Positions 11,957 to 35,137 of a DNA stretch of 64,000 nucleotides are shown in pieces (the stretch's first letter is position 1; each line of letters begins with the position of its first letter). The translations under genes and the position numbers were made by a program. The stretch comes from Betaproteobacteria bacterium. GTDB taxonomy: Bacteria; Pseudomonadota; Gammaproteobacteria; Burkholderiales; Rhodocyclaceae. Below the pieces are notes generated by a model that did not search any database, had not been told where the DNA came from, and was given only the letters and a program-made list of their open reading frames with translations. Where the stretch lies: contig JAHRYW010000001.1 in the NCBI GenBank assembly GCA_020621865.1, forward strand, positions 150,071 to 214,070, given 5' to 3'.

Positions 11957-12004
11957 TGTAGGTGAATGCATAACCTGAGAAAGCTGGACGCATAAACCGA
12001 GAAA
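11957..12004 (+). repeat. Left (gyrB-proximal) transposon end with two TnsB-type sites
   Basis: The end starts TGTAGGTG and carries two sites 22 bp apart: 11969-11982 (CATAACCTGAGAAA) and 11991-12004 (CATAAACCGAGAAA). Close spacing resembles the right end of Tn7. Sites are assigned by repetition, not by binding data. Confidence 0.85.
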
Positions 12005-12073
12005 ACTATGAACAACTGCCTTTCGATTGCTCTGTTGACTTATGGGGCGTCGGGCGCCCAGTAGAACAATTGA

Positions 12074-12098
12074 ACGGCCACCAAGAGTGGCCGTTTTT
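12074..12098 (+). terminator. Intrinsic terminator in the left transposon end
   Basis: An 8-bp perfect stem (ACGGCCAC/GTGGCCGT) with a 5-base loop followed by a T run. It would stop gyrB read-through before the defence operon. Confidence 0.8.
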
Positions 12099-12158
12099 CT
12101 TAGCCTTTCACCTTTCGGTCGTCCGCTCTATCGAATCGACAGTTACTGAATCATCATC

Positions 12159-13778
12159 ATGGCAAACAAACTCACTCTAGACACGCTCGAAAGCTGGCTC
12201 TGGGAATCCGCCAACATCTTGCGCGGCTCCATCGATTCGTCCGACTTCAAGAACTACATCTTTGGCTTGCTGTTTCTCAAGCGCTTCAACGACGTCTTCG
12301 AAGAACGCGTGGTTGGGTTGATGAACGACGAAGGTCTCAGCCGTGAAGATGCCGATGCCGAGGTTTGCGAAGACCAGGGAGATTTCCCGGAAACCGCCCG
12401 CTGGGGCTACCTCATCTCTCGCACCGAGAACATCGGTGAGGCACTCGACAAAGCCTTCCACGACATTGAAGCAGGTGTGAAGGGCACCGACCTGCAGCAC
12501 GTGCTTACGGCCACCCAGTACGGCGACAAGCGTGTGCTGTCCGACCATACTCTGCAACGCCTGCTGCGCCACTTCAACCAGTACCAGTTGGGTAATGATG
12601 ACCTCTACAAGGCCGACATGCTGGGCGATGCTTATGAGTACCTCATCAAGCAATTCGCCGATGACGCGGGCAAGAAGGGGGGCGAGTTCTACACACCAAA
12701 GGGTGTGGTGAAACTGGTGGTTGAACTGCTCGACCCGCATCCCGGCATGAGCGTGTATGACCCGACTTGCGGCAGCGGCGGCATGCTGGTGGAGAGCGCG
12801 CACCACATCGCCAGTTTGCCGGGCGGCACAATGCTGGGCGATAAGCCCAACGTCCTTCTGTACGGTCAGGAAAAGAACCTGGGCACCTGGGCCATAGCCA
12901 AGTTGAACCTTTACTTGCACAACATGCGCGCCGAAATCGAGCGCGGTGACACGTTGGTCGAGCCGAAGCATCTCGACGGTGACTACCTCAAGACCTACGA
13001 CCGCGTGATTGCCAATCCACCGTTTTCTGCCAAGGCCTGGTGGTCACCGCTGGAGCTTGAAAGCGAGGCAGAGAAAGAGGGCGACAAGAAGCCCAAGGCA
13101 CCCAACTACAAGCAGGTTAGCGACCCCTATGGCCGTTTTGCTTACGGCATTCCACCTCGCGGCTATGCAGACCTCGCCTTCGCTCAACACATGTTGGCGA
13201 GTCTGAAGGCTGACGGCCGAATGGGCGTCATCCTGCCGCACGGCGTGCTCTTCCGTAGTGGTGAAGAAGGCAAAATTCGCGAAGGGCTGCTGTTCGGCAC
13301 CAACACTGCAAGCGGCAACCAGCCCGGCGACCTCATCGAGGCTATCATCGGCCTGCCGCCAGCACTGTTCTACAATACTGGCATCGCAGCCTGTGTGTTA
13401 GTGCTCAACAAGCAGAAGCCCGCAACGCTTAAAGGCAAGGTCATCATCATCGACGCCAGTCGCGACTACCTCGAAGGCAAGGCCCAGAACAGCCTGCGTC
13501 CTGAGGACATCGCGCACATCGTGAGCACCCATAAATCAGCCTTCGAGCAGCAGACCGAAGTGGAGAACTACTGCCGGGTGGTGACGCTGGAGGAAATTCG
13601 CAGCAACGACGGCAACCTCAACATCGCCCGCTACATTGACAACGGTGAGACTGAGGAGGCGATTGATGTGGCCGCGACTTTGGCGCAATTAACCGCATTG
13701 GCCAAGGACGAGGCACAGATTGATGCGCGTCTGAATAGTTATCTGGTAGAACTGGGATTGCTGGAGGCAAGGGCGTGA
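12159..13778 (+). CDS. hsdM: Type I restriction-modification system, methyltransferase subunit
   Basis: A 539-residue HsdM that transfers methyl groups from SAM to adenine N6 when assembled with HsdS. The N-terminal helical HsdM_N domain ([14 protein letters not shown]) is followed by the N6-MTase domain with SAM motif DPTCGSGGM (from residue 201) and catalytic NPPF (residues 286-289). It is the first gene of the seven-gene defence operon; its stop overlaps the start of hsdS. It is cargo of the Tn7-like element. Confidence 0.97.
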
Positions 13779-15085
13779 ATTCGGTAGCAAAGCCGGGGTA
13801 CAAAGAAACTCCAATTGGCTCGGTTCCTTCCGAGTGGTCTGTCAAACAGGTCGCAATGCTTGCTGATGTTGATTCTGAGTCCCTGCCGAAAAAAACGCCC
13901 GCTGATTTTTTGTTCCGCTACATCAGCCTTGGTGATGTCGATTCGGGAAAGCTGTTATCTGGTCACGACCAAATCACCTATTCTGAATCCCCTTCGCGAG
14001 CACGGCGCGTAGTAAGAACTGGAGACGTCCTGTTTGCTACTGTCCGTCCCAACCTGAAAGGGCATTACTTCGTACGCCAAGCACATGGCAATGTGATTGC
14101 ATCAACAGGATTCGCTGTTGTTCGGGCCAAGGCTGGAATTGCATCCCCAGAGTTTCTGTATCAATCGCTGCTATCTAAAAGCGTAGATACGCAAATCGAG
14201 AAGCTCACGGTTGGCTCCAGCTATCCAGCCGTCAATTCCGCAGATGTAAAAGGGTTGCTTTTATCAGTGCCTCCACTCGCTGAGCAAAAGAAAATCGCTG
14301 CCATCCTCAAAGCGGTGGATGAAAAACTGGACATCATTTCCCGCCAGATTGAAGCCACCCAGACCCTCAAGCGCGGACTGATGCAAACCCTTTTTAGGCG
14401 GGGTGTCGGTAACCAGAACACTGATGGTCGATGGGTGCCACATACCGATTTCAAAGATAGCGATTTGGGAGAGATTCCTAAGGCTTGGTGCACTCGCCCG
14501 ATTGGCACGTTGTTTGATGTCGTTGAGCGACCATTCGATATGTCTGAGGACAAACTGTATCGCCGTGTCACGGTCAAGCGTCGGTACGGCGGAATTGAAT
14601 TACGCGACGAGCTTCCCGGTAAAGACATCAAGGTCAAGAACCAGTTTTTGGTTAAGGAGGGTGATTTCCTGATTTCTGAACGCCAGATTGTTCATGGTGC
14701 GTGTGGCATTGTGCCTGCTGAATTGGCAGGGGCACTGGTATCGAACGAATATCTGGTGTTAAAGGCCAAGGATGGTATCGATGTGCGTTACTTCGGCTAC
14801 CTTGTTCAGCTGTTGAGGTATGCAAAGTATTTCCTGCTTTGTAGTCAGGGTGTGGACATCGAGAAATTCCTTTTTAAGCCAAAGGACTGGCTCAAAAAAT
14901 TGATTCCTGTGCCGCCGCACGAAGAGCAGGTACGGATTGCTGACATGCTTTCCACTATCGAAGAGAAGCTTCAATCGTTTCAACGCAGGCAGTCTGTGTT
15001 CCAGCAGCTCAAGTGCGGCCTCATGCAGAAACTGCTGACCGGCGAATGGCGGGTCAAGCTCGACGAAGAAGCGGTCACGGCCTGA
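13775..15085 (+). CDS. hsdS: Type I restriction-modification system, specificity subunit
   Basis: A 436-residue HsdS with two target-recognition domains, which set the bipartite DNA site, each followed by a conserved helix. The repeats are [20 protein letters not shown] after the first domain and [20 protein letters not shown] after the second, each ending in a GLMQ-type helix. It starts at GTG 13775, overlapping the hsdM stop by 4 bp. The recognition sequence cannot be predicted from this alone. Confidence 0.95.
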
Positions 15086-15121
15086 ACTGGCACTATCAAA
15101 AAATACAGGGAGCAACGGGAC

Positions 15122-18100
15122 ATGGGTGGTGCGGAGAAAGTAGGCGTTGAGACTCCGGCAATCGAATGGCTGGTCAAGCTGGGCTATACCCATTTACCCG
15201 GCAGCCAAGTGGAGGTGTCGCATCGCCATCTCGCCCCGGTGCTCGAGAATATCCTGTCGCCCCGACTGTTGTCGCTGAACCCCTGGCTCGTCAAGGCGCC
15301 CGGTGGTGTCAGCGCCGCGCTGGTGGAACTACGCAAACGGGTCAATGACGAGCTGCTGCCTGCGAACAAGGCGTTCTGGGAGCAGGTTGTACACCGCTCC
15401 GACATCCAGGTGAAAGATGGGGAAGGTAGCCCGCGCAGCGTGCGCTTCTTCGACGCGACCACTGTCGCCAACAACGACTTCCACGTGGTCGACCAATACG
15501 TCGGTCGCAATCCAGACGACGACGTGTTCCGCCCCGACCTGTTGCTGTTCGTGAATGGTCTGCCCCTAGCCATCATCGAATGCAAGGCTAGCCACCACCG
15601 CCTCGATGAAGCACTGGCACAACTGGACGGCTACCGGGCCGCCTTTCCGGCCCAGTTCGTATTCAACCAGATATCCGTTGGCCTCAATCGCCGCCAAGGG
15701 TTGTACGGAGCCATCTTTACGCCACCGGCTTTCTACGCCCACTACCGCTTACAGGAGGCCGAGCGCGTTGAGGTGGCGGCACTGCTGGGGACTGAGCCAA
15801 GTAAGCAGGAGCAGTTGTTGTGGGCCTTGTTTGAGCCCGCGCGCTTCCTGGAACTCGTCACGCACTATGTGCTGTTCGAAACCCGTGAGGGCAAGACGGC
15901 CAAGAAGCTCCCGCGCTATCAGCAGTGGCGCGCCGTACGCCAGACGGTGCTGCGCCTGACTGCGCCGACCCCTGTCGGTGGCGTCATCTGGCATACCCAG
16001 GGCAGTGGCAAATCGCTGACCATGGCTTTGTTGGCGAGACTGTTGCGGGCCGAGAGCACGGGCCTCGACAATCCGACTGTGCTGGTGCTGACCGACCGGC
16101 GTGACCTCGACAAGCAAATCTTCGACACCTTTCATGCGGTGGGTATCAAGGCTATCCAGGCAGTGTCGGTCGATGGCCTCATCAGGATGCTGTCGAACGA
16201 CTATGGCAGCGTGTTCACGACCACCGTCCAAAAATTCCAGGAAAAGGATGAGAAGGATGGGGCCGAAGACGCGGCCCAGGCGGTACCTGTGGTAGATGAG
16301 AACGAAATCCTGCAAGCGGTCCGGAGTCGGCGAGTGCGGGACGGTAAGGACTTCTTTCTGCTCGAAGAGCGCAATACGAACTTCGGCCTGTGCGACGAAG
16401 ATGGGGTGCTATTGCCCGCCAACTGGGAAGAGTTAAGCCGAGAGAAGGTGAATTTCCGAGTGCTGAGCATGAAGGACAACTTCTATGTGCTGGTCGACGA
16501 AGCGCACCGCAGCCAGTACGATTTTCTGGCCGCCTTCATGCGGGCTAGCCTGCCGAACGCCAAGTTTATCGCCTTCACCGGTACGCCTCTGCTGAATGAC
16601 GACAAGCACACGCTGGCGGAGTTTGGCGGCGGCGAATACATCGATGAATACCGCTTGCATGAGGCAGTGGCCGATGGTGCGACCTTGCCCATCAAGTATC
16701 AGGATGCCTGGGTCGCGCTCGCTCCTGATGCCAAGTTAGACCAGGCCTTCAAGGACCAGTTTGCAAAGGAAACCGAAGCTAGAAAGTTGGTGCTCAAGAA
16801 GGAACTGCTGACGCGCTGGCGACAGGCCGGCGACCGAATGGAGAAGGTAGCCCACCATCTGGTTGAGCACTTCTTGAGCAATGTGCGAGCGAAAGGCCTC
16901 AAGGGTATGTTGGTCTGCGACGGGCGCGAAATGGCCGTGCGCTACAAGGACCTGCTCGACGCCATCATGAGGGAGCGTACAGAGCAGGGTTTGCCCACCT
17001 TCGAGAGTCGTGTGGTGGTGTCCCTGGCCAGCATCACAGGGTCGCGAACTGGTGCATCCGAGCAGGAAGCGGCAGCTGAGTACAAGGTCGACGCCAAGCA
17101 GGTGCAAACCATCGAAGAGCGTGTGCGAGCGGAAGTAAAGGCCGGCAAGCAACCGGTGGCGATGCCGGCTGAGCAAGTTGCCAACTTCGTCAGCAAGCTC
17201 TTTCCGTTGCCATATGGAAACGAAACCAAAGGCAAGGATGGCAAGGTGCACGCCAACAACGTGGGGCTCATTATTGTCTCCGACATGCTGCTTACCGGTT
17301 GGGATGCGCCTATCGTTGGCACCATGTACCTGGATAAGCCGCTCAAGGAACACACCCTTCTTCAGGCCATTGCGCGCGTGAACCGCACCCTGGAGGGCAA
17401 GAATGCCGGGTACATCGTGGATTACCACGGCGTAGTCGAGCATCTGGACCACGCACTCAAGATTTACGGTGGTGAAGTCAAACCGGCCCAGGTCTGGGAA
17501 GGGGTGGAGAGTGAGCTACCCAAACTGCAGGCGACCCAGGAGCGCATCCTCAAGCTGCTGCCACGCAAGCATGACCCGGTCGGCCAGCGCGAGGACTACA
17601 AGAACGATGCGGAGGTCTTCCTCGACCCGGTAACGCGTCTGGATATGGTCGAAGACTTCCTGGAATTGGTGAAACAGTTCAACCGCAGCATCGACATCAT
17701 CCTGCCCGATGTGCGCGGCCTGCCTTTCAAGCCCTACTTCACCTTGTTCGCGGAAATCCGCCTGATGCTACGGGACAAGTTACCGGGTACTACCTACCGG
17801 GAGCGCATTACCAAGCTGGAGTCGTTGCTCCTGCAGCAACTGCTTGATGAGTACATCAGTGCCAGTCCAGCCAAGAGCTTGCTTGGCAAGGAGGTGTCGA
17901 TTCTGGATGCGTCGGATATGGCCCGGCTGAAGAAGCTGGCCAGCCCCGGCAGCCAGGCGTTGGTCATGAAAAACCAGCTGAAGCACACCATAATGACGGG
18001 GCGCGACAGGGACCCGTCTTTTTTCGACAAGCTCGCCGCAGAGCTGGAGAAGTTGCTCGAAGAGGAAAAGGCAGGCCGGATTTCACAAGTCAAATTCCTA

Positions 18101-18415
18101 GAGCAACTGGAACTGTTCGGTCAGCGCATCAAGGACAAAGACAACACCGGCTTTGCCATCGCGGCGCAGTCAGCGGTTTTTCACTTCCTTGAATCTCAAC
18201 TTGCGAGCGAGCTGGCGAGGGTTGTGACGACCAAACTATTCGAGGATGCAGAGCTCTGCCGCACTATCGCTTCCGGTAACTGGAAAGCGATGCCAGACCT
18301 ACACCCTGATTTGAGAAAGCACATCACCAGCCTGCTTGTCCCGTTGGCGGGATGGCAACGCGCGGTAGCCCGGGACCACGCCGCGCAAGTTCTGAATATT
18401 CTGCTTAAGAACTGA
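15122..18415 (+). CDS. hsdR: Type I restriction endonuclease, motor/nuclease subunit
   Basis: A 1097-residue HsdR that translocates DNA and cuts it far from the recognition site. An N-terminal PD-(D/E)xK nuclease is seen as RPDLLLF then IECK (E153, K155). The SF2 motor has Walker A QGSGKS (residues 293-298) and the DEAH box at 459-462, followed by the SAT-like motif FTGTP and the C-terminal helicase and HsdM-contact regions. All catalytic residues are present. It lies 36 bp after hsdS and 2 bp before the next gene. Confidence 0.97.
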   Translation: MGGAEKVGVETPAIEWLVKLGYTHLPGSQVEVSHRHLAPVLENILSPRLLSLNPWLVKAPGGVSAALVELRKRVNDELLPANKAFWEQVVHRSDIQVKDGEGSPRSVRFFDATTVANNDFHVVDQYVGRNPDDDVFRPDLLLFVNGLPLAIIECKASHHRLDEALAQLDGYRAAFPAQFVFNQISVGLNRRQGLYGAIFTPPAFYAHYRLQEAERVEVAALLGTEPSKQEQLLWALFEPARFLELVTHYVLFETREGKTAKKLPRYQQWRAVRQTVLRLTAPTPVGGVIWHTQGSGKSLTMALLARLLRAESTGLDNPTVLVLTDRRDLDKQIFDTFHAVGIKAIQAVSVDGLIRMLSNDYGSVFTTTVQKFQEKDEKDGAEDAAQAVPVVDENEILQAVRSRRVRDGKDFFLLEERNTNFGLCDEDGVLLPANWEELSREKVNFRVLSMKDNFYVLVDEAHRSQYDFLAAFMRASLPNAKFIAFTGTPLLNDDKHTLAEFGGGEYIDEYRLHEAVADGATLPIKYQDAWVALAPDAKLDQAFKDQFAKETEARKLVLKKELLTRWRQAGDRMEKVAHHLVEHFLSNVRAKGLKGMLVCDGREMAVRYKDLLDAIMRERTEQGLPTFESRVVVSLASITGSRTGASEQEAAAEYKVDAKQVQTIEERVRAEVKAGKQPVAMPAEQVANFVSKLFPLPYGNETKGKDGKVHANNVGLIIVSDMLLTGWDAPIVGTMYLDKPLKEHTLLQAIARVNRTLEGKNAGYIVDYHGVVEHLDHALKIYGGEVKPAQVWEGVESELPKLQATQERILKLLPRKHDPVGQREDYKNDAEVFLDPVTRLDMVEDFLELVKQFNRSIDIILPDVRGLPFKPYFTLFAEIRLMLRDKLPGTTYRERITKLESLLLQQLLDEYISASPAKSLLGKEVSILDASDMARLKKLASPGSQALVMKNQLKHTIMTGRDRDPSFFDKLAAELEKLLEEEKAGRISQVKFLEQLELFGQRIKDKDNTGFAIAAQSAVFHFLESQLASELARVVTTKLFEDAELCRTIASGNWKAMPDLHPDLRKHITSLLVPLAGWQRAVARDHAAQVLNILLKN

Positions 18416-18417: not shown

Positions 18418-19128
18418 ATGCCGCGTTTGCACTATGGCCAGACAGTCATCGAATGGCAGTTCCAGGCAGATGCCAGCCTGAAACGTCACTACGTGACGGT
18501 CGAACGTGGTCGTCCTGTGTTGCTACGTGGACCGTTGGTAGATGCGTCTGAGCAGGAGGCGCTAGTCCGTCAGCGTGCCCGTTGGATTAGAGAAAAGTTG
18601 GCCCAAGTTAACAAGCCACGTGCGGAAGGCGCTGTCGTAACGGGTAGCCGTCTGCGGTATTGCGGGCGGAGCTACTTCACGGAAGTCCGTCATGTCCCCG
18701 GGCTGGCCATGCCGCGATTGGCCTTTACGGCTTCGCGATTTGTTGTCGAATGCTCCGAGGGAGCCCTGGTCGCCCCAGAGGTCGTGGAGCAGTTACTTGA
18801 GGGCTTCTACCGGGAGCGCGCAGAGGCGAAGTTACCGTCCAGAGTTCGTCATTGGGAGCGCGAGACGGGATTGAAATCAGCTGGTGCACGCATTCGGCAG
18901 TTTCAAAGTCGGTGGGCAAGTTGTGATGCAAAAAACATACTGCAGTTCCACCCGCGTGTGATGGAGCTGGCTGTTACTGTGCAGGACTACATCATCATCC
19001 ACGAGCTTTGCCATACGGTAGAAAAGAACCACACCAAGGCATTCTGGCTCCTTCTTTCGCGAACTATGCCAGGCTGGCAGCAGCTACACGAGACCTTGGA
19101 GCGGGCTGCGTTCGGGGACGCAATCTAG
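18418..19128 (+). CDS. YgjP-like (DUF45) zinc metallopeptidase
   Basis: A 236-residue protein of the YgjP/SprT-like metallopeptidase family, with HELCH at 195-199 and H205 (zinc site HExxH...H) and the upstream family signature QSRWASC. Members are very often encoded beside type I restriction systems; the biological substrate is not settled. It begins 2 bp after hsdR, so it is almost certainly translated from the same message. Confidence 0.88.
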   Translation: MPRLHYGQTVIEWQFQADASLKRHYVTVERGRPVLLRGPLVDASEQEALVRQRARWIREKLAQVNKPRAEGAVVTGSRLRYCGRSYFTEVRHVPGLAMPRLAFTASRFVVECSEGALVAPEVVEQLLEGFYRERAEAKLPSRVRHWERETGLKSAGARIRQFQSRWASCDAKNILQFHPRVMELAVTVQDYIIIHELCHTVEKNHTKAFWLLLSRTMPGWQQLHETLERAAFGDAI

Positions 19129-19173: not shown

Positions 19174-20418
19174 ATGGCATTCGTGGGAATCCGGGGCGCT
19201 ACACCTTTGAAGGACGCGATTGAGCTTCGCGCGCATCTCGCCACTTTGTTGCGACTCGAAAACGTCGGCATCTTCCTGGGGGCGGGTGCATCGGTTGCTG
19301 CGGGTGGAAAGACGATGTGGCACCTATGGGATGACTTCGTAGACACATCACCCAACGAGGCACAATGGATGGTCGACAATGAATTTGTCGAGCCTAGCGC
19401 GGTTGATGACCCTTTGGTCCGAGATGTTCCCAACGTTGAAAAACTTGGCGACGCGCTGGAGATTGCTCGTGTCGAGTGGCGGCGCCAGAACAGTGTGCAT
19501 CTCCCCGAACTAGAACGTGCTCGTGCTCATCTCGCGCGGGCAGTAGTCCGCGCGGCACAATTGCAGCCTTCGTGGTGGACATCGCCAGGCGGGGCTGAAG
19601 CCGATGCGGAGCAACTACAGCACCACCGAGCAGTTTTGCAGAAGCTAGTCGCGGCGCGGCAACCAGGCCAGGCGGCGCCATGGGTATTCACAACCAACTA
19701 TGACCTGGCAATTGAGTGGGCTGCTGAGTCCATTGACCTTCAGGTGGTCGACGGATTTCTAGGTATCCACGGTCGTCGCTTTTCCCCACAGAGCTTCGAC
19801 TTGGGTTTTCGGAATACGCAGGCGCGTGGCGAGGCTCGCTTCGGGGTCTATAACATTTACCTCGCGAAGCTTCACGGGTCGCTGAGTTGGCGGGAGGATG
19901 CGGAACAGGTCTACGAAGTTCAGGCACCGTTGGCAGGACAACAAATCCAGGAGTTTCTAGGTGATGCTGCCAAGACTGAACTCGGCCTCATGGTTATGCC
20001 AAGGGCTGCAAAGTACATGCAGACCGTTGGGTATGTGCTGGGCGAACTGTTCAGGCGTCTCTCTGAGTTCCTGTCACGTCCGCAAACAAGCTTAGTGGTG
20101 TGCGGTTATGGGTTCGGTGACGAACACATCAACCGGTTGCTGCGTTCGGCGTTATTGAATCCAACCTTGCAGTTGGTGGTGTATTTCCCAGGGTTTTCCG
20201 GCGATACGACGGCAGCAACGCTACCGGAAGCGCTCCGGAAATTACTGTCTTTGAAGAATCCCAGGGTTACAGTTGTAGGCGGAGGGGAGGACGCACACTT
20301 GGACAAGCTGGCTTCCCAGTTGCCCGACCCCCTACTTTACGATGATGACATGCGAAAGCTAGAGAAGGTACTCCGGGAGCCGCTAAGCGATGCCGCCAAT
20401 TTAGAGGACATCCTATGA
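19174..20418 (+). CDS. SIR2-domain defence protein (SIR2-HerA system)
   Basis: A 414-residue SIR2-like protein with GAGAS at 36-40, FTTNYD at 172-177 and the putative catalytic histidine in KLHGSLSW (H234), then a GYGFGDEHI motif. Such proteins hydrolyse NAD+ on phage infection, and together with HerA form the two-gene SIR2-HerA antiphage system. The ATG follows AAAGGGAG. Its stop overlaps the herA start (ATGA), which supports a complex of the two proteins. The assignment is from motifs and pairing. Confidence 0.88.
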   Translation: MAFVGIRGATPLKDAIELRAHLATLLRLENVGIFLGAGASVAAGGKTMWHLWDDFVDTSPNEAQWMVDNEFVEPSAVDDPLVRDVPNVEKLGDALEIARVEWRRQNSVHLPELERARAHLARAVVRAAQLQPSWWTSPGGAEADAEQLQHHRAVLQKLVAARQPGQAAPWVFTTNYDLAIEWAAESIDLQVVDGFLGIHGRRFSPQSFDLGFRNTQARGEARFGVYNIYLAKLHGSLSWREDAEQVYEVQAPLAGQQIQEFLGDAAKTELGLMVMPRAAKYMQTVGYVLGELFRRLSEFLSRPQTSLVVCGYGFGDEHINRLLRSALLNPTLQLVVYFPGFSGDTTAATLPEALRKLLSLKNPRVTVVGGGEDAHLDKLASQLPDPLLYDDDMRKLEKVLREPLSDAANLEDIL

Positions 20419-25254: not shown

Positions 25255-27263
25255 CCCGTACCCTGCTCATCAATGACCGACTCGCGCCCCCAGAAAATCA
25301 CGAAGCCTACCTGGAGGTGCTTGACCCGCACCCTCGGAGTGGCTGCATCAAGGTGTTCGATGCCGAAAAACGGCAAGACCGGTATATCAAGGTAACTCGT
25401 CTGACGGCTGAGCTGTATGAAGGCACGCTGATTGTTGTACGTCCTGGAAAACCTCGATTCAGTGTTGCTGAACAACCCGATGACCCGGTATTGCACGAAC
25501 GAAATGCCGATATTCGCAAGATGTTGAAGCGCATTCGTGACCTCCAAAAGCGCTTGGGTATCAGCTTTCTGAAGGCGTACCGTCATGCAGCTGACGAGTA
25601 TGCTGAAGCAGTTTCGCTACAGACAGAGCCCTTTCCGTCCCAGGCCGCGATATATCGCTACCGAAAATCTACATCGGCAGGCCTGCCGGCGCTGCGGGGT
25701 AACAAGAACAAGGGTAACCGCATGTCGCGTTATCCCGACGATGTGATTCAGGTCATTTGCCAGTTAGCTGAACGACACTATCTGCAACCACAGTCGCGTT
25801 GGACGCTAAAAAAGTTGACCGAAGCGGTGAACATTGAGGTGTCCGACTCCTTGCGTCCGGCTGGTCAATCCCCGATAAGCATTAAGTACGTTAAGCGCGT
25901 CATGCTGCATTTTCTGACGCCGGACCCCGAACACCACCGGATGCTTCCGAAAGATGCCGTGGCGGGCAAGTCGTTCGCGAAACGCCGTATCCGGCTTGAG
26001 CTTCCGTTCGAGCGTGTTGAACAAGATGCAGTGCATTTGCCGTTTGTCGTCAAAACGCCGAGTGGCATCACAAGCCAGGTCTACCTTGTACATGCCATCG
26101 ACTGCTGCACAGGCTATCCCTTGGGCTGGCACCTGGTCATTGGTGGGTTGACGGACACTGACTCGCTGGCATGTGCTGAGATGTACATGGCACCGATTAA
26201 GCAGAAACGTTTTGAGGAACTCGGTATCAATCATGCGATGAACGTATGTGGTACGCCGGGTGAGCTGATTTTCGACAACGGCCCGGAAGCCAAAGGGGGG
26301 CGGATTCAGCGCTTGGAGCGTCTCGGCGTGGACGTCAAGCACTGCCGTGCTCGTGCCGGACAGGAAAAGCCCTTCATCGAGCGGCTGAATCGTTCTCTCA
26401 AGGAAGCCCTGGAGGTACTACCCGGTTGTACTCGGTTGGATGGCAAAGATGGCCAGCGCGACCCAGTTGCGCTCGGCGACGAGTTGATGACCATCGAGCA
26501 ACTTGAACGTTGGATAGTTCGATGGCTTTATGAGAAATGGGTCCATATCTCTTTGAAACGTTTGCAGTGGGACCTTATCCTCACGAGCGACCTCAAGGGA
26601 GATACGCCGGCCGAGCGGTGGGCACATTACGAGGAATCGTGTTTTGCGCTCTCGCTCCCTCCATCTCGTGCCGAATGGCTTGCGACGCTATATGAGCACG
26701 TCGAGCGCCGCATCAACCGAAAAACGGGAATGACCCTTGAGGGTTTAAATTACAAAGGCGACAACATTGCCTTCCTGCTGGGGAAATACGGGGAGCAGCA
26801 AGCACTGAAGGTTCTATACAACCCGGACGATTTCCGTCACGTATATGTGCATGAAGGTGATGACCAGCCGTTGGTTATGCTGTCTCATGAGCATCTTCGT
26901 CCTGAGACGCCGGCGTGGTCTTTCAACGAAGCTAAGGAACGCTTAAAAACCCAGCGCTCAAAATCGACGCCGGCAGTCCAGGCAGAGCAGTTCGACCGCG
27001 ACCTTTATGCGCAGAGTGTCGCTGATTCGCGCCCGCCGAAGCTCAAACGCCCAAGCAAACATGCGCGAAATCGTGAAACAGCTCAGCTCGAAAAGGAAGC
27101 AAAAGCCGTGTCTCGGGCGGCAAAGCAGCCGGTGCCAATGCCCCCTCCGGTTAAGTTTGGCAATGTGCCAACGACTACTGGCGTACCAGCCTCCAGTTCG
27201 ATTCTCGAAGAGGCAAATCTGTTGCCCCTTATCGACCGTGAGAATGGGGGGGCATTGTGGTGA
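25251..27263 (+). CDS. tnsB: TnsB, DDE transposase
   Basis: A 670-residue TnsB that binds the ends and joins the 3' strands to the target. The DDE triad can be placed at D259 (VEQDAVH), D342 (IFDNGPEAKG) and E377 (KPFIERLN), with 34 residues between the last two. N-terminal DNA-binding domains and the Arg/Lys-rich C-terminal tail that contacts TnsC in homologues are present. Starts at ATG 25251 overlapping tnsA (ATGA). It should recognise the CATAA-N-C-N-GAGAAA sites at the ends. Confidence 0.96.
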   Translation: MTRTLLINDRLAPPENHEAYLEVLDPHPRSGCIKVFDAEKRQDRYIKVTRLTAELYEGTLIVVRPGKPRFSVAEQPDDPVLHERNADIRKMLKRIRDLQKRLGISFLKAYRHAADEYAEAVSLQTEPFPSQAAIYRYRKSTSAGLPALRGNKNKGNRMSRYPDDVIQVICQLAERHYLQPQSRWTLKKLTEAVNIEVSDSLRPAGQSPISIKYVKRVMLHFLTPDPEHHRMLPKDAVAGKSFAKRRIRLELPFERVEQDAVHLPFVVKTPSGITSQVYLVHAIDCCTGYPLGWHLVIGGLTDTDSLACAEMYMAPIKQKRFEELGINHAMNVCGTPGELIFDNGPEAKGGRIQRLERLGVDVKHCRARAGQEKPFIERLNRSLKEALEVLPGCTRLDGKDGQRDPVALGDELMTIEQLERWIVRWLYEKWVHISLKRLQWDLILTSDLKGDTPAERWAHYEESCFALSLPPSRAEWLATLYEHVERRINRKTGMTLEGLNYKGDNIAFLLGKYGEQQALKVLYNPDDFRHVYVHEGDDQPLVMLSHEHLRPETPAWSFNEAKERLKTQRSKSTPAVQAEQFDRDLYAQSVADSRPPKLKRPSKHARNRETAQLEKEAKAVSRAAKQPVPMPPPVKFGNVPTTTGVPASSSILEEANLLPLIDRENGGALW

Positions 27264-28249
27264 CTCCCGCAAAAAAATTACGCATTGCCATCGAGGCCTG
27301 TGAACTACCGCATAAGGCGTTTCAGGAGCAGTTAAAAGCAATGCGGTTGCGCATCGAGGACGCCCTTGATGGTGCTGCAAGCCGAATCGAACATGTAGTC
27401 GGGCCATCCAGAGTTGGTAAGTCGATGCTGATTCAAGCGTTACGGCGGAACTTTCCGGAATCAAAGGTGGATGGGCGCCGCCGGGTTCCTGTCCTCGTTG
27501 TTCAAGTACCAACGCCAGTGTCCCCACTTCAGTTGCCATCCAGCGTCCTCGAGGCTCTAGGGCTCCCGGTCCACGGCAGCATGAACTCGGGAGTCCTGAG
27601 GCTGCGGATGCGCGACCAATTGAAACTGGCGGGCACTCGGGTGGTCATTTTTGATGAGGCCAGCCATTTAGTTGAGCCGGGTGCCCGTGTACCACCCCGC
27701 GCTGCCGGCGACTGGTTCAAGATGCTGGCAGACTCTCTCAATTTGAGCTTGCTGCTGTTTGGTGTCCCACGTCTTGAGCGTCTATTCGAACACAATGAAC
27801 AGCTACGTATGCGTGCATCGGCCGTACGTTGGATGATGCCCTACGACTCTCGTGTTCCAGATAGTCTGAAGGCATTTCACGATTGCGTCGCAACCTACGC
27901 AAATCTGTTCAAAGAAGCGGGTTACCCGATTGAAGTTTCGGCAACGGCTTTAACCCATCAGTGCTATCTGCTTACAGGGGGGCTCATTGGCGTTTTGAGT
28001 CGGTTCATGCAGGAACTGGCCAGCCAAATGGCGTACCAATCGCCACGGCCGCTGACTTTCACGGACTGCCAAGCTGCAGCTCGGTGCATCGAAGCCGCTG
28101 GCTCGCCACGCATACCTGCTTTTGAAGGCCCCGATGTCGTGCTCGCTGACATCGCACCCGCATTGCTACATCAAGCGTTCGTACAGGTCATGCACGACAA
28201 CAACTTGGCAGTACCGCTGCTTAGAGAGATGGAAGGAGGTGTCCAGTGA
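27257..28249 (+). CDS. tnsC: TnsC, AAA+ transposition regulator
   Basis: A 330-residue AAA+ ATPase that links target selection (TniQ/TnsD) to the transposase. Walker A is GPSRVGKS (49-56) and Walker B VVIFDE (D133, E134). It starts at GTG 27257, overlapping the tnsB stop, with a second GTG at 27260. It is shorter than the 555-residue TnsC of Tn7, so some accessory regions are missing, as in many Tn7-like elements. Confidence 0.93.
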   Translation: MVTPAKKLRIAIEACELPHKAFQEQLKAMRLRIEDALDGAASRIEHVVGPSRVGKSMLIQALRRNFPESKVDGRRRVPVLVVQVPTPVSPLQLPSSVLEALGLPVHGSMNSGVLRLRMRDQLKLAGTRVVIFDEASHLVEPGARVPPRAAGDWFKMLADSLNLSLLLFGVPRLERLFEHNEQLRMRASAVRWMMPYDSRVPDSLKAFHDCVATYANLFKEAGYPIEVSATALTHQCYLLTGGLIGVLSRFMQELASQMAYQSPRPLTFTDCQAAARCIEAAGSPRIPAFEGPDVVLADIAPALLHQAFVQVMHDNNLAVPLLREMEGGVQ

Positions 28250-30090
28250 GTCTCATGGTGACGTATGCCCCACATAGCGATGAATCTGGACTCGGTTACT
28301 ACCGTCGGCTCGCTGCAGACAATCTGTTGTCAGGGTGGGGGGAACTGACCAAATTGGCGGGTGTTAGACGTAGCCGTGGTGCGTTAATGGAGCAGGCCGA
28401 GCATGTTGCCGGATGCTTGGGTCTCGAGCCGGAATGGGCACAATATGCGCGACAGCAGGAGGTGGATAGTCGTTGCTGGGGCCGATTGTCTCGTGTTCAG
28501 GCCGATGCGGTATGCCCGGACTGTCTCGCAGAAGCGGGATACATGCGGCATCACTGGGGGCATGCTTATGTCACTGCGTGTCCGATTCACCAGATTCAAC
28601 TGGTCGACCGCTGCGATAGCTGTGGTGAGTCACTGTCGCCGAACCGCGACTACATCGACCAGTGCGCGTGTGGTCACGAGCTGTATCGCTTGCCACGTCG
28701 AGCTTCAACGCCCAGTCAGCATTGGCTGTCCTCGTTGATTGCCAGTGGTGGTATGCAAACCGGGGGCGCTGAACCGGAACTACGCTGTGCCGACTTAGGC
28801 ACCGTCGGCCAGGTTGTTGCGACGCTTTGCCTTTCAGCAGACCCGACAAAGCCGATGGCCCCGCGCGCTGCAGCGTTTCCGCTGTCGGTCTCTGCTGCTA
28901 TGGATTTTCTGGCGCCACTGGAATCATTGCTGGCAGACTGGCCACGTGGCTTCAGCAGCCACGTGGCGACCCGGATTGCGGCGGGTAAGCCGGAGGCGCG
29001 AACACTGAACTCACTACTTGGCGCGTGGTACATCAGCCTGCGTAAACTGAGCCAGGGCAACGGTTTTGAAGCCTTGCTGCAAGTTGTCATTGATGTTGCA
29101 GCAGAAAAGTTTGATGGCCTGCTCGGCCTCGACTCGGCCAAAGCAATGGCCGAGGCAGCGACCGAACATCTGCGTGCGCCAGATGCTGCCAAGGCTATCG
29201 GTGTCAGTGTTGACCGGTTGCACAAATCGATTCAGCTCGGGGAATGCGCTTCACGAACTCGCCGTACCGGCACCCGTGGCCAAGTTTATGAAATCCCCCG
29301 CGAAGAAGTCACGCGAATTCAGGAAAAACGCAGTAGGTGGGTTAGCCGCGAAGCTGCTTGTGAGCTCGCGGGTGTGTCACCGTCCGTGCTCGAACGAATG
29401 ATGGCTGCTGGCGTCATTAGCTCAGATGTAAACTGGCGCCATGACCTGCTGAAAGGGGGGCCGGTTGCATCGGCCTCTATTCAAGCGCTGGCCGACCGAA
29501 TTTCTGCAGCGGCGGCGCCTGCCGTAGCTCGTGAGATAGAAACACTGGCCTGGTCAGGACTGACGAGTCGGCGCATGGGCGACAAACGGGCAATCGAGTC
29601 GGTGATGCAGGCCATTGCTGATGGCAAGGTGAAGGCTATCGCTACCGGCAGGCAACTGGGCGACATGGTTTTCCGGCAAGCTGATGTGGTGGAGTATTTC
29701 GGTACCCCGCTGCTGGAAGCCGGTATGTCGCTTAATCAGCTGTCGAAGGTTACAGGCTGGAAGTGGGAGAGTATTTCGCACTGGATAGCTGAGGAGCTGT
29801 TGTGCGCCGAATCGGTCGTTGTTCGGGGGCGTCTCCATCGGGTCGTGCTCCCACAGGAATTGCTGAAATTCAGGCAAACCTATGTGCCGCTGGCGGATTT
29901 AGCCCGAGGGATGGGCACCAAGTCCTCTGCGCTGTCAAAGCTCCTGCCTGGCATCGAATTGGTAGGTGCGCAGCAACTTCCTGATGGGGCCAAGCGTGGC
30001 GGGTTGGTTCGTATTGTTGATTTGTGCCGGCTTGCGATGATTGGGGCTCGTGCAGGGGAAGACCTGTTTGTGTCATCGGGAAGCGAGTAA
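28246..30090 (+). CDS. tniQ: TniQ/TnsD-family target-selection protein
   Basis: A 614-residue TnsD-like protein: an N-terminal TniQ domain with paired zinc sites (C90/C93, C112/H115, C123/C126, C140/C142) followed by a long C-terminal part containing repeated helix-turn-helix units, e.g. DAAKAIGVSVDRLHKSIQ and SREAACELAGVSPSVLERM. In Tn7, TnsD binds the 3' end of the attachment gene; here the target is probably the end of gyrB, inferred from the insertion point. GTG 28246 overlaps the tnsC stop and follows GGAGGT. Confidence 0.9.
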   Translation: MSLMVTYAPHSDESGLGYYRRLAADNLLSGWGELTKLAGVRRSRGALMEQAEHVAGCLGLEPEWAQYARQQEVDSRCWGRLSRVQADAVCPDCLAEAGYMRHHWGHAYVTACPIHQIQLVDRCDSCGESLSPNRDYIDQCACGHELYRLPRRASTPSQHWLSSLIASGGMQTGGAEPELRCADLGTVGQVVATLCLSADPTKPMAPRAAAFPLSVSAAMDFLAPLESLLADWPRGFSSHVATRIAAGKPEARTLNSLLGAWYISLRKLSQGNGFEALLQVVIDVAAEKFDGLLGLDSAKAMAEAATEHLRAPDAAKAIGVSVDRLHKSIQLGECASRTRRTGTRGQVYEIPREEVTRIQEKRSRWVSREAACELAGVSPSVLERMMAAGVISSDVNWRHDLLKGGPVASASIQALADRISAAAAPAVAREIETLAWSGLTSRRMGDKRAIESVMQAIADGKVKAIATGRQLGDMVFRQADVVEYFGTPLLEAGMSLNQLSKVTGWKWESISHWIAEELLCAESVVVRGRLHRVVLPQELLKFRQTYVPLADLARGMGTKSSALSKLLPGIELVGAQQLPDGAKRGGLVRIVDLCRLAMIGARAGEDLFVSSGSE

Positions 30091-30882: not shown

Positions 30883-31761
30883 CTACAGGTCAAGCGACGA
30901 TACCGAAACGATATGCTTTAGCTGCTCCAGCAATTCTGGATGCCGTTGCTGAATAAATCGCTCAACGGGCTCGTTTTCGAGGAGTTTTGCGACGTACCCT
31001 CGTGCTAGAACCAGATTCAGCACGTCGTCGGCGTAATTCCGTTCAATCAGTTCGTACTGTCCTTGCAGCTTGGCCATTTCTCGCTCCATTCGCAGCATTT
31101 GCTCGGCAGACACGCCGGCCAGTTTCTTGGCTTTCTGTCCTTCATGAAGTTGCTCGGCCGGCGTCGCCGCGAGCAGTGCCTCGGCGTAAGGAATGGTCAG
31201 ATTGTTCGCCAGCAGCATCAGGTCGACGCATTCGACCTGGCGCGTCGGCTTCATTTTTCGCAGCAAGCGGGAAATCTCCGCAGAAAACTGTCTATCCCTA
31301 AGAAGCTCAATCGCCTCGGGGCAAATGCCGTCCAACAATTTGACCTTCTTGAGGATTTGCGAGACATCGACGTTGAGTGCCCGAGCCAACCGTGCTGCCG
31401 GGACGCCGCGCTGAACGGCCTTGCGCAACATGCGATGCTCACCGATGGTGGCCAGTCGGTTGATTTTGGTGTTGTAGGTATAGGACTCGTCGTCGGTGGC
31501 CACCAGGCAGAGGGCTTCGGCGTAACCCAGTTCTCGTAGGGCCAGCAGCCGCGCGTGGCCATCGAGCACCAGATAATTGCCATCCGCTTGCATCGGGGAA
31601 ATCGACAGTGGCTCGATGAGTCCGACCTCTTCCAGGGAGCTGACGATTTGTTTGTACTTGACCGAGGCAACCAGGCCGGCCGGAATTTTCTTGGACGGCA
31701 AGAGCTTATCGAGCGGCACCAAGCAGGTTTCGGGGATAAATCCCAACAGGGGGCCATTCAC
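30883..31761 (-). CDS. ParB N-terminal domain protein
   Basis: A 292-residue ParB-like protein. The ParB/sulfiredoxin-like signature is VLDGHARLLALRELG (residues 66-80), preceded by LLPSKK and followed by an HTH region (VPAARLARALNVDVSQILKKVK). The C-terminal half is charged and probably helical. Such proteins bind DNA and, in true ParBs, CTP. Its ATG overlaps the stop of the preceding RepB-like gene by 4 bp. No ParA is nearby, so classical partition is unlikely. Confidence 0.82.
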   Translation of the reverse strand: MNGPLLGFIPETCLVPLDKLLPSKKIPAGLVASVKYKQIVSSLEEVGLIEPLSISPMQADGNYLVLDGHARLLALRELGYAEALCLVATDDESYTYNTKINRLATIGEHRMLRKAVQRGVPAARLARALNVDVSQILKKVKLLDGICPEAIELLRDRQFSAEISRLLRKMKPTRQVECVDLMLLANNLTIPYAEALLAATPAEQLHEGQKAKKLAGVSAEQMLRMEREMAKLQGQYELIERNYADDVLNLVLARGYVAKLLENEPVERFIQQRHPELLEQLKHIVSVSSLDL

Positions 31762-32660
31762 GCAGGACCTCCGTTCGGCCAGACACGGTTCGCCAGGTAA
31801 TTGGGCATGGTGTCCAGGTGCTCGGCACGCAACAGGGTGACGAAGTTCTCGTCGGCGAGGAGTTGGCGCAGCGCGCTGACCACAAAAAGCAGACGCTGTT
31901 GGGTCAATTCGGCCTTTTTTACTACCAGCTTTTGGCGCTCAACTTCACGCTGGTAGGTACGCACCAGACTGGAGGCCGAGACTTCCGTCGTGCCGTTGCG
32001 GGGGCGCTTGGTCGCGCTACGCCCTAGGGTTTGCCGGCGTTCGATGACCTTGCGCGTTTCCAGCAATTGCTTGCCGCGGAGTCGACCGGATTCATACGCC
32101 TCCTGCATGGCGGCTTGTAAAGCCTTGTCGTCGTCTCCGGCGCCGACAATGTCTAGCGCCGTATTCAACGGCACCCGGCCGGTTTCCACGGCAATGAGGA
32201 GACGTTCTTCGCCGTGGTCGAGGAGTTTCAAAACGCCGGACACATAGGTCTGGGTCAGTCCCGTCTTGGTAGCAATATCCTTGGCCGCATAGCCAAGGTC
32301 GCCCAAGCGCTTAATGCTCGACAAGATTTCGAGCGGCCGGTACTGCCGGCGAGCCATGTTTTCAGCAAGGCTGATGATGTAGGCCGCTTCGTCATCGACC
32401 TCCACGACCAAGGCAGGAATTTCCGTATGGCCCAAGGCACGGAAAGCATTCAGTCGCCCTTCGCCACAAACCAGCAGGTATCGTTCGGCACCGTCTTCGC
32501 CACTTCGGGGCGTAACCGTCACCGGCTTTTTGAGGCCGACCTTCTGAATGTTGCCGACAATGTCCTCATAGACCCGTTTATTCCGCTCGCGGGGGTTGAT
32601 GACCTCGATGCGGTCTATCGGGATGGTTTTGAGGGGGCGCTTTTTCAGGAGCGAGGTCAT
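31758..32660 (-). CDS. RepB/ParB-family protein
   Basis: A 300-residue protein with the ParB N-terminal core (VCGEGRLNAFRALG at 64-77, AENMARRQYRPLEIL about 99-113), an HTH (YAAKDIATKTGLTQTYVSGVLK) and a C-terminal region like the RepB plasmid partition C-terminal domain. The ATG at 32660 overlaps the recombinase stop by 4 bp. The paired ParB proteins and the serine recombinase look like one functional unit; the role is unknown. Confidence 0.82.
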   Translation of the reverse strand: MTSLLKKRPLKTIPIDRIEVINPRERNKRVYEDIVGNIQKVGLKKPVTVTPRSGEDGAERYLLVCGEGRLNAFRALGHTEIPALVVEVDDEAAYIISLAENMARRQYRPLEILSSIKRLGDLGYAAKDIATKTGLTQTYVSGVLKLLDHGEERLLIAVETGRVPLNTALDIVGAGDDDKALQAAMQEAYESGRLRGKQLLETRKVIERRQTLGRSATKRPRNGTTEVSASSLVRTYQREVERQKLVVKKAELTQQRLLFVVSALRQLLADENFVTLLRAEHLDTMPNYLANRVWPNGGPA

Positions 32661-34222
32661 GCTGCCCTCCGAATCCGCCGGCGCTCCGCCATCCCGACCA
32701 GGTAATCCAGGGTATCGAAACGGTAGCAATCGAACTCCACCGCGTTGACCTCGGCCAGACGCAGATTCGTTTCGCCAAAGTCGAGCCGTGGCAACAGGTA
32801 GTAGTCGTAGGCGGCATCGTTGTCCGGGGTCAGGCGAACGGCTACGGTGACATCGGGGCAGAGGCTGGTATCCAGCCGTATCTTCCAGCGGCGACTGCCA
32901 GTGCTGGTCGTCAGGCAGCGGGCAAGGACCAGAGACACCGTGAATTCGTTATTGACCGTCAGGAGGTCTGTGGCCGGGTCCCGGTCCACCTCGCCGCCAA
33001 CAGCTTGGATGGCCGCTTCGGTCTCGCTCACAATGGTCGGATGCAACTGGCGAAGGAAGCGGTTGGTTTCCAAGAAGCGATAGTCGCGGTCAGGCATGAA
33101 GCCCACTTTCTGGTAGGCCCGTATCAAGCTGCCAAACCGATGGGCATAGGCCGCAGCCGACGGCATGCCCTCGGTCTCGTTGATGATGAGCCCGGATAGC
33201 AGCCCACGCGTCTGATAGAGGCTACGAAGGCGCTCAAGGAGTTCATCGTCGCTGTAGCGTCGTGCTCGCGCCCGCAGGATGCCCTGGGCTGTGAAAAACA
33301 ATTCAGGGGAGACGATGGCTTCGAATGCGCCTTCTTTGCGAACCCACATCTCGCCAGGATTGGTTACACGGGTTTTCTTGAGCTTGAAGGAAATCCGGTT
33401 GTAAATGTTGTTGCCGATGTACTTCTCATTGCTCAGCACCTCGTTGACGGTGCCGCGTGTCCAGGCCCGGTCAAGGTCGGTACGGATACCTTCCGCGTTG
33501 AGGCGATTGGCAATCTGCGATTCCGCCAGATTGTCATCAATGAACCAACGGTAGATGCGATTGACCACCGCGACTTCTTCAGGAGGCCCTGGAACCAGGA
33601 TGACCCGGTCGGTTTGCAGGCTTTTGTGCTCCCCTCGGGCCAGCATGCTCTTCACTAGCCCATGTTGGTCGATGAGTACCCGGCGTAGTCCATAACCTGC
33701 CGGGCCACCTTGCCGGTAGCCAAGTTCGATAAGCCGGCATTGGCCAGCGAACACCTTGGCCGACAGCTCACGGCTGTACTCGCCGGCCATAGCGCGTTTG
33801 ACCCCTTTGACGATGGTCGAAACTGGCGAACCATCGTTGTCGAATTGCTCGGCGACGTAGGTGACGGTGATGCCTTTACGCTTGCAGATGTATTCGTAAT
33901 AAGCACTTTCATCCGCATCCTGAAAACGTCCCCAGCGGCTGACGTCATAGACCAATATGAGTTGGAAATCCGCCTGACCGGTCTCCACATCGTGAATCAG
34001 CCGTTGCAGCGCTGCCCGGCCATCGATGCGCAAACCGCTCTTGCCCTCATCGGCGTAGGTGCGAACTATCTGGATGCCGTGGCGGGCAGCGTACTCCCGG
34101 ATGCGGTCAGCCTGGTTCTCGGTGGAGTATTGCTGATGCTCGGTCGACATGCGGACATACTCCGCCGCCCGAAACAGGGAAAACTGACTGGCACCATGGG
34201 GTTGGTCATCTGGGGATGGCAT
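32657..34222 (-). CDS. Large serine recombinase
   Basis: A 521-residue serine recombinase: resolvase domain with the nucleophile in YVRMS (S26), followed by DEGKSGL and SRWGRFQD, the Recombinase domain (NRLNAEGIRTDLDRAWTRGTVNEVLSNEKYIGNN) and a long C-terminal region without an obvious Cys-rich zinc ribbon. Large serine recombinases integrate or excise DNA at att sites. It is transcribed against the tns operon and overlaps the RepB-like gene. TnsA is present, so cointegrate resolution is not needed for the Tn7 reaction; the recombinase may belong to a once-separate element. Confidence 0.92.
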   Translation of the reverse strand: MPSPDDQPHGASQFSLFRAAEYVRMSTEHQQYSTENQADRIREYAARHGIQIVRTYADEGKSGLRIDGRAALQRLIHDVETGQADFQLILVYDVSRWGRFQDADESAYYEYICKRKGITVTYVAEQFDNDGSPVSTIVKGVKRAMAGEYSRELSAKVFAGQCRLIELGYRQGGPAGYGLRRVLIDQHGLVKSMLARGEHKSLQTDRVILVPGPPEEVAVVNRIYRWFIDDNLAESQIANRLNAEGIRTDLDRAWTRGTVNEVLSNEKYIGNNIYNRISFKLKKTRVTNPGEMWVRKEGAFEAIVSPELFFTAQGILRARARRYSDDELLERLRSLYQTRGLLSGLIINETEGMPSAAAYAHRFGSLIRAYQKVGFMPDRDYRFLETNRFLRQLHPTIVSETEAAIQAVGGEVDRDPATDLLTVNNEFTVSLVLARCLTTSTGSRRWKIRLDTSLCPDVTVAVRLTPDNDAAYDYYLLPRLDFGETNLRLAEVNAVEFDCYRFDTLDYLVGMAERRRIRRAA

Positions 34223-34341
34223 ACGACATTGCTCCCTTCCTCGTGGCGAGTGCGCAATTGCCGTTCCATGCAGAAGGCCCCGCCACTGGTTGTTGGTGAC
34301 GAGGACCCTATCAAGGAATTTACCGCTCGAACATCACAGAC

Positions 34342-34779
34342 TCATTTGCAATTCAGCGCTTCAACGTCTGAAGGTCTTTGCAGCACAGTGATTTCGACGA
34401 GCCACACCGCATCCTTTGCAATCATTTCGGCCGTCGCTGGAATCAGCTGGTAAAGCCCAGAGGGCAAGATGTTGGATGAGAACGACGTATCTTTTGCAAT
34501 TCGCGCCTGATTACGCGTTTGTTGTTGCATCCTATTCCGTTCCGCATAGGCTAAATGTTCGGCACGGTATTTTTGCCAGTAGTCGGGATTCTTTGCGGAC
34601 CAGTCCTTGAGATACTGGGCATCGCTTTCACGCATAGTCAGGCTCTCCTGGCGTCGCTTGGCCTGCTTGAGCCGGCGCCGCTCGTTTTGGCAGGGCGGGT
34701 TCGAGCAAAATTGCTGGTTTTTTGCTTGAGGCCACGGCGTGAATGAATTACCGCAGGCCTTGCATCGTCTGGTTGTCAT
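34342..34779 (-). CDS. Small zinc-finger protein of the recombinase module
   Basis: A 145-residue basic protein with an N-terminal four-cysteine finger (C6, C9, C25, C30: CKACG...FCSNPPC) followed by an Arg/Lys/Gln-rich helix and a C-terminal tail. It is probably DNA- or RNA-binding. The start at 34779 is chosen because the upstream frame to 35097 runs into the transposon end. It is the first gene of the leftward module, 119 bp before the recombinase. Function unknown. Confidence 0.7.
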   Translation of the reverse strand: MTTRRCKACGNSFTPWPQAKNQQFCSNPPCQNERRRLKQAKRRQESLTMRESDAQYLKDWSAKNPDYWQKYRAEHLAYAERNRMQQQTRNQARIAKDTSFSSNILPSGLYQLIPATAEMIAKDAVWLVEITVLQRPSDVEALNCK

Positions 34780-35035
34780 CGCTTTCTCCGAATAATAAGG
34801 AGGCTGCAATGCACTACTACCGTGGCTTTCGGGCAATCTTGGTTGGTTTCCGTAGCCCTGCGCGCTGGTGGTTGAGACCGACTCCCCATGCGTCGATAAA
34901 CAGACTAAAATCACGTTCAAATACAGGCAGTTTTCTTGGTGGCCATCTATGCTGGCCAATGGCCCAAACCTTCTGATGGGGTGGCAGCATTTATGGCAAT
35001 CCTCCCGACCGTGAAGGATGAGGGGTGGAGAGAGA

Positions 35036-35137
35036 TTTCTCAGTTTATGAGTAGCCTTTTCTCGCCTTATGAATCCCCTCCGGCCGGAAAGCCACATCTG
35101 GGAAAGAGGAATTTCTCAGGTTATCCATCCATCTACA
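35036..35137 (-). repeat. Right transposon end with three TnsB-type sites
   Basis: On the reverse strand the end reads TGTAGATGGATGGATAACC, matching the left end. Sites are at 35112-35125, 35058-35071 and 35036-35049, with spacings of 54 and 22 bp. Wider spacing of the outer site resembles the left end of Tn7. Confidence 0.85.

Follow-up and report, generated by a model that had tools for sequence, protein, structure and literature searches.

A Tn7-like transposon directly downstream of gyrB

The DNA analyzed here (hereafter the window) comprises 64,000 nucleotides (nt) of contig JAHRYW010000001.1 (assembly GCA_020621865.1), which derives from a bacterium of the family Rhodocyclaceae in the order Burkholderiales. 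It carries a Tn7-like transposon of 23,181 bp at positions 11957–35137, directly behind gyrB; all coordinates and strands are those of the window. The gyrB gene (9436–11946, + strand; Pfam DNA_gyraseB, GyrB_insert, and DNA_gyraseB_C), whose 3′ end is the probable host attachment site, follows just behind dnaA (6667–8079) and dnaN (8289–9395). Its stop codon occupies 11944–11946, and after 10 further nt the element opens, at the 11th base, with TGT (11957) and finishes with ACA at 35137. A 5-bp duplication, TGTGT, flanks it on the gyrB side (11952–11956) and on the far side (35138–35142), as is expected of Tn7-like elements. The two termini are identical at 23 of 26 positions, the runner-up among ACA-ended sites between 9436 and 36500 reaching only 14 of 26.

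Repeats of the CATAAcCTGAGAAA type, counted by eye on the sequence, are predicted to be TnsB-type sites. Two of them lie 22 bp apart at the gyrB-proximal end (11957–12004, + strand; repeats at 11968–11982 and 11990–12004), and three lie at the distal end (35036–35137, − strand; 35036–35050, 35058–35072, and 35112–35126). Such asymmetric arrays together with TGT/ACA ends are typical of Tn7-like transposons, as is the tnsA-tnsB-tnsC-tniQ operon, which sits mid-element with its frames open and all on the + strand, i.e., that of gyrB. An earlier description of this locus, made from the letters alone (the sequence-only reading), had listed TGT/ACA ends, 26-bp similar termini, five repeats, the TGTGT duplication, open tns frames, and an insertion beginning 11 bp after the gyrB stop, and our analysis confirmed all of them.

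We assigned TnsA and TnsB on the basis of weak Pfam matches, gene order, active-site-like motifs, and the same order in relatives. The putative tnsA (24451–25254, + strand) matches PF08722 below the cut-off (20.4 bits versus 26.5), contains E, D, and E-x-K motifs, and has 57–66% identical matches in four relatives. The putative DDE transposase gene tnsB (25251–27263, + strand) displays a weak match to Mu-transpos_C (20.8; cut-off, 21.7), a weak IS481-type core, and D/D/E motifs, and likewise has relatives; its frame is open from 25092, and the likeliest start is 25251, at an ATGA overlap with tnsA. The motifs of both proteins were located by position, and we take them to be active-site residues. 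A phmmer search of TnsB against the PDB returned no match at E 0.01. Downstream, tnsC (27257–28249, + strand) encodes an AAA+ ATPase with matches to PF05621 (TniB) and PF13401 and Walker motifs, and tniQ/tnsD (28246–30090, + strand) encodes a predicted target selector of 614 amino acids with a long C-terminal part, in which PF06527 (TniQ) covers residues 6–119 and a weak HTH_17 match covers residues 367–392. A profile built from nine TniQs (profile A1) matches TniQ and TnsD chains in the PDB. The window TniQ found no match among PLSDB plasmids at E 1e-10, and no cas family scored above cut-off in scans of the element's proteins, which left the smaller open reading frames (ORFs) unscanned and included no CRISPR-array search.

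TniQ relatives behind gyrB

Five loci in genome contigs (from Cupriavidus, Paraburkholderia, Herbaspirillum, and two Burkholderia) encode proteins 60–67% identical to the window TniQ, and in all five the best gyrB match precedes tniQ on the same contig and in the same direction. A sample of the order yielded a match to this TniQ in 3 of 399 genomes, namely the window's own, G388 (35% identity), and G204 (28%), with both of the latter downstream of gyrB. Overall, relatives in the aligned set range from 67% down to 21% identity.

We then relied on profile A1 at a threshold of E 1e-15 for searches within two families, and gyrB was located in all matched genomes of both. In the family of G204, 26 of 399 genomes matched. 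Eight of these TniQs share contig and strand with gyrB and follow it, 17 are not close to it, and the remaining one (G946) is encoded on a different contig. In the window's own family (24 of 249 genomes matched), 14 follow gyrB on its strand and a further one (G1239) follows it on the opposite strand; 5 are not close to gyrB, and the other 4 (G1229, G1184, G1183, and G1392) are encoded on different contigs. Whole ORFs were rescored with the profile, with the window and the five named loci counted in, G1169, G1300, and G218 left out, and a line drawn at 186 bits. At or above this line are 32 TniQs, of which 27 are encoded behind gyrB on its contig (26 on the gyrB strand) and 5 on separate contigs. 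The genomes of those five (G946, G1229, G1184, G1183, and G1392) all display a Tn7-type end 3–5 nt past the gyrB stop, and in four of them only 72, 111, 345, or 688 bp of contig follow the gyrB match (in G1229, 12 kb). None of the 22 weaker matches was found near gyrB, as 9 are on the gyrB contig at a distance of at least 188 kb and 13 are on other contigs; in G877 and G1169 a split element is possible because the gyrB contig ends within 8 kb.

The division between gyrB-sited and other TniQs thus follows TniQ similarity, with a boundary that is a matter of degree, since the top rescored weaker relative (G1088, 163 bits) matches along most of the profile length. One gyrB-sited protein falls under the line (G1128; 157 bits, a 385-amino-acid ORF). 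The sequence-only reading had proposed the gyrB end as the landing site and had pointed to TniQ relatives beside unrelated genes as evidence that would speak against it. The relatives of at least 186 bits did not refute it, and their recurrence behind gyrB supports the landing site, which TniQ is predicted to read. Relatives were few in class-wide samples (3 and then, by profile, 6 of 369 genomes). Three of the latter six had already been counted and three are outside the order (G734, G529, and G560); in G734, the only one of the three checked, TniQ is not on the gyrB contig and no Tn7-type end was found behind gyrB.

A tree of 52 TniQ proteins (30 labelled gyrB, including the 5 on separate contigs, and 22 labelled other, with G529 and G560 placed there without a gyrB look-up) requires 3 changes of this label, compared with 16.9 in shuffles. 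The partial proteins of G1038, G1128, and G1223, as well as G1169, G1300, and G218, were omitted. A single origin of the gyrB set is possible, though the tree does not show it.

Paired ends, duplications, and orientation

We examined 40 gyrB-downstream regions for transposon ends, five of them from same-genus control genomes. In 21, paired ends (18–24 of 26 positions) occur together with an exact 5-bp duplication (G000, G399, G400, G401, G403, G388, G977, G377, G1163, G1216, G1296, G278, G1375, G1377, G1257, G1353, G1335, G1352, G1239, G049, and the control G218); the weakest pairs (18–19) lean on the duplication, because the scoring favored partners with a matching one. The stretches from G402, G204, G1038, G1066, and G1043 were cut by a contig end or by the extent fetched. 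Of the 21 duplications, 18 are distinct (GATGT was seen three times and CTGTT twice), and therefore the position is fixed more than the local sequence.

All but one of the 21 paired-end elements gave a tniQ match in a tblastn search with the window Tns proteins, and the match points in the direction of gyrB except in G1239. Likewise, 10 of the 11 elements printed have their two-repeat end toward gyrB, the exception again being G1239 (L155-L156), in which ends are swapped and tns genes reversed at the same offset as in its end family. Since both are reversed, the whole element is reversed. Apart from G1239 and G111 (see below), these separate insertions share a distance and a mostly fixed orientation behind one gene, as at a fixed attachment site.

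When the 30 best gyrB matches from 150 genomes of the window's family were scanned, 14 had an end of the pattern TGT[AC]G[AGT] at most 16 nt from the stop, against 138 of 10,018 16-nt stretches of the same loci (1.4%); the pattern was picked after the ends were known, and the 40 regions above had already included 6 of the 14. The sequence-only reading had suggested looking for empty gyrB sites, and sites without such an end were indeed found in the same genus (G336, in which dtd apparently follows gyrB, and G307).

Several regions display further features. Two tandem TniQ matches occur in G377 (L121-L122), G1353, G1335, G1352, and G049 and might represent dual target selectors. In G218 (L048), a mini-element of 1,768 bp begins 6 nt past the gyrB stop, with ends identical at 21 of 26 positions and the duplication CGATT; no tns gene was matched in it, and helpers located elsewhere could mobilize it. 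Among 20 loci read for genomes with a weak TniQ match, an end-like sequence lies behind gyrB in G981, G1148, and G941 (by pattern) and in G803 (by eye), and G1384 has one as well. In G981, G1148, and G941 (L203, L207, and L212) the detected TniQ is weak and elsewhere, and other transposon families possibly share the gyrB site.

Insertion distance appears to track codons inside gyrB

Across 43 hosts, the distance from the stop codon to TGT is 2–10 nt. GyrB mostly ends in the residues NAL followed by seven more; in five hosts with readable ends, including the window's, NAL is followed by six (a sixth short-tail host, G111, was left out of this count). For G1377 and G1335, whose fetched stretches fell short of the full NAL codons, we assumed a tail of the usual length. 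Measured from the stop, short-tail hosts insert at 6–10 nt (mean, 8.0; n = 5) versus 2–8 nt (mean, 4.3; n = 38) in the others (Mann-Whitney p 0.001), whereas the corresponding means counted from NAL, 29.0 and 28.3, are similar (p 0.31); these p-values are indicative only, because the short-tail hosts are related, three of five belonging to the window's genus. For the paired-end cases taken separately, the stop-based means are 8.0 (n = 3) versus 4.7 (n = 18) and the NAL-based means 29.0 versus 28.7. When seven ends of lower certainty are included, G111 among them, the stop-based means become 9.0 and 4.3 (p 0.0004).

The eight members of the window's end family insert 30, 30, 31, 31, 31, 31, 31, and 32 nt past NAL (31 in the window), and their standard deviation halves if the distance is measured from NAL. 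Insertion distance thus seems to be measured from inside gyrB. The recognition zone would span 12 GyrB codons (11890–11925, + strand), from which the distance varies less than from the stop; in the window, insertion starts 31 nt past its NAL codons.

A probable older element stacked behind the transposon

A likely older Tn7-like remnant (TGTAGGTTCC ... GGAACCTACA, 35144–50110) is stacked behind the transposon. The repeat TGCTGTGTA flanks it, occurring ahead of its left end, where the newer insertion splits it, and past its right end (50111–50119). This repeat measures 9 bp versus the 5 bp expected, a surplus of four bases that lies at the remnant's left end; a nested third element as its cause was not found with the few patterns tried. 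By the likely reading of 35144–50110 as an older Tn7-like element, TGCTG was duplicated and the insertion lies 28 nt from NAL, and the CTAGATTT end family is found mostly 27–28 nt from NAL, like the remnant. The newer element would then have landed after the older one, at its own distance.

The remnant contains genes for a GGDEF protein, an S51 peptidase, and an insertion sequence transposase. Profile A1 at E 1e-15 detected no second TniQ in the window's genome and so none in the remnant. A sensor kinase gene (50240–53494) separates the remnant from dtd, which lies at 53497; most of 35138–53490 is extra relative to G336, because dtd apparently follows gyrB there.

Cargo of the transposon

Between the gyrB-proximal end and the tns operon, the + strand encodes a type I restriction-modification system (12159–18415; hsdM, 12159–13778; hsdS, 13775–15085; hsdR, 15122–18415), a YgjP-like metallopeptidase (18418–19128), an anti-phage pair of SIR2 (19174–20418) and HerA (20415–22157) identified by PADLOC and by NCBIfam NF042942 and NF042943 above cut-off, and an HNH endonuclease (22190–23152). 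Beyond the operon, the − strand (30883–34222) encodes a RepB-like protein (30883–31761), a ParB/RepB-like protein (31758–32729), and a large serine recombinase (32657–34222). Three small ORFs (23319–23831, 24038–24484, and 34342–35097) matched no Pfam family.

Some of this cargo recurs behind gyrB in other hosts. The hsdM gene is 89% identical in the element of G401, there on the opposite strand, and 84% identical in that of G977, the tniQ genes of these two being 64% and 43% identical to the window's, respectively. Copies of SIR2 and HerA that are ~81% identical lie behind gyrB in G1038, and a set of recombinase, ParB/RepB, and RepB proteins that are 60–73% identical is present in the gyrB element of G401.

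Interpretation and alternative explanations

Very probably, given the patterns compared here, a large TniQ of the TnsD type recognizes gyrB by its 3′ coding end and directs the transposon to the DNA immediately behind that gene. The observed anatomy, duplications, recurrence, orientation bias, and distance pattern would fit a cut-and-paste Tn7-like transposon carrying a defense island, in which a single large TnsD-type TniQ binds the gyrB coding end around the EPRRxFIExNAL codons and loads TnsC on the stop-codon side. TnsA and TnsB would then place the element shortly after the stop, ~26–32 nt from the NAL codons, and orient it so that its two-repeat end is toward gyrB. TniQ binding to gyrB, TnsC loading, and cut-and-paste movement are the putative steps of this scheme, and the element may be active at present. 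The insertion leaves gyrB whole, so that every host would offer a safe docking site.

Several observations weigh against targeting by TniQ. In the tree, the gyrB set is not one group, several branches are long, and some placements are unsure. An AlphaFold2 model of TniQ from six sequences was unusable (predicted local distance difference test score, 47). No partner end was found in G1128, G1236, or G1223, each read to ~40 kb, and the reversed element of G1239 means that control over orientation is not absolute. As to distance, adding the seven less certain ends also moves the means from NAL to 30.0 versus 28.3 (p 0.12), and to this the relatedness of the short-tail hosts must be added. In G111 (L050), an end-like sequence of the TGTCGGxTGACA type lies 14 nt past the stop and 35 nt from NAL, out of range, and the distance in G1384 is 2.9 nt longer than in its own end family even from NAL.

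The element could alternatively seek the origin region, or an intergenic feature behind gyrB such as a terminator hairpin or open chromatin, with gyrB itself unread. This idea gains from the position of gyrB beside dnaA and dnaN in the window and from the TnsE-type targeting of replication structures known for Tn7 (as covered in the available part of PMC11406308). We nonetheless find it improbable, as an origin-region preference would be expected to scatter insertions over kilobases, whereas they fall within a window of a few nt that tracks GyrB codons, though the downstream DNA and most duplications differ. Those differing duplications, together with differing offsets among hosts, also speak against vertical inheritance as the sole explanation, i.e., a single old insertion that diverged in place with no ongoing targeting. 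All gyrB cases found do belong to one order, and the same-genus pair G1216 and G1296 has nearly the same TniQ. However, several end families occupy the same spot, sites without an end exist in the same genus (G336 and G307), the window seems to carry two stacked elements, one element (G1239) is reversed, and hsdM is far closer to its counterpart in G401 than tniQ is. We therefore regard this history as very unlikely.

Least credible of all is placement of the island by the large serine recombinase (32657–34222), even though that protein has resolvase and recombinase domains and is encoded near the distal end, beside the RepB/ParB-like genes. Inverted TGT/ACA ends, TnsB-type repeats, and 5-bp duplications are products of the Tn7 type, and a relative of the recombinase appears in only 1 of 39 other gyrB regions (G401) at E 1e-6, compared with the tniQ match in nearly all paired-end elements. 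On these grounds we rejected it as the inserting enzyme.

For targeting by TniQ, a broader proposal can be made, which seems to us as apt to fail as to hold: a deep lineage of TnsD-type TniQ proteins, carried by highly divergent TnsABC sets, may home on the gyrB end and make the DNA between gyrB and the next gene a principal permanent docking site in Burkholderiales for anti-phage cargo that can be exchanged, with element families stacking there, each at its own distance. With TniQ reading gyrB, this gene would join the short list of Tn7-like attachment genes as one that is essential, near-universal, and close to replication start genes. The hosts would amount to a natural distance experiment on TnsD targeting and supply many selectors, probably protein-guided, that share one site, and the locus would mark a place to look for transferable defense systems in Burkholderiales.

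Comparison with known systems

Known attachment genes include glmS, comM, yhiN, parE, and tRNA genes, with guaC, yciA, ffs, and rsmJ serving guide-RNA elements (available part of PMC11406308). None of the literature titles and abstract openings covered names gyrB as a Tn7 site, most subscription papers, preprints, and supplements lying outside that coverage, and gyrB is absent from the main text of PMC10293859, PMC8649781, PMC11406308, and PMC10702557; PMC12452197 uses it as a phylogeny marker. A Tn7-like transposon, B479_00025-00140, has been described in Pseudomonas putida HB3267, and the order of its tags suggests that it follows gyrB, a point on which the passages available of PMC4731212 are silent.

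The window element resembles Tn7 in several respects and differs from it in its target, gyrB. Insertion of Tn7 likewise yields a 5-bp duplication, and its tns operon points away from the target gene, as in the window element. Tn7 inserts ~25 nt past the stop, whereas the window element lies a few nt past it. Both combine TnsABC with a TnsD selector and insert behind an essential gene through recognition of its coding end, this gene being glmS for Tn7 (excerpts of PMC11406308 and PMC2918618) and, as predicted here, gyrB for the window element, and they differ in their ends, with four plus three repeats in Tn7 (excerpts of PMC10702557) and two plus three here.

Among known target genes, parE also invites comparison. 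Its product, ParE, is a paralogue of GyrB. In Tn7017/EasCAST, a TniQ-family protein targets parE (available part of PMC11406308); that system is CRISPR-associated, and the window element's scanned proteins gave no cas family above cut-off. Tn6022 (TniQ plus TnsF, at comM) and Tn6230 (at yhiN) are Tn7-like with fixed chromosomal sites (excerpts of PMC10293859 and PMC11406308). Tn6022, as described in those excerpts, inactivates comM and needs TnsF, whereas the window element keeps gyrB whole and a single large TniQ was found in it. Finally, the Tn7-like metal islands of Burkholderia, which is in the same order of bacteria, share the tnsA-tnsB-tnsC-tniQ order, TGT/ACA ends, and 5-bp duplication with the window element and, in contrast to its place behind gyrB, are inserted at various positions (available part of PMC10702557).

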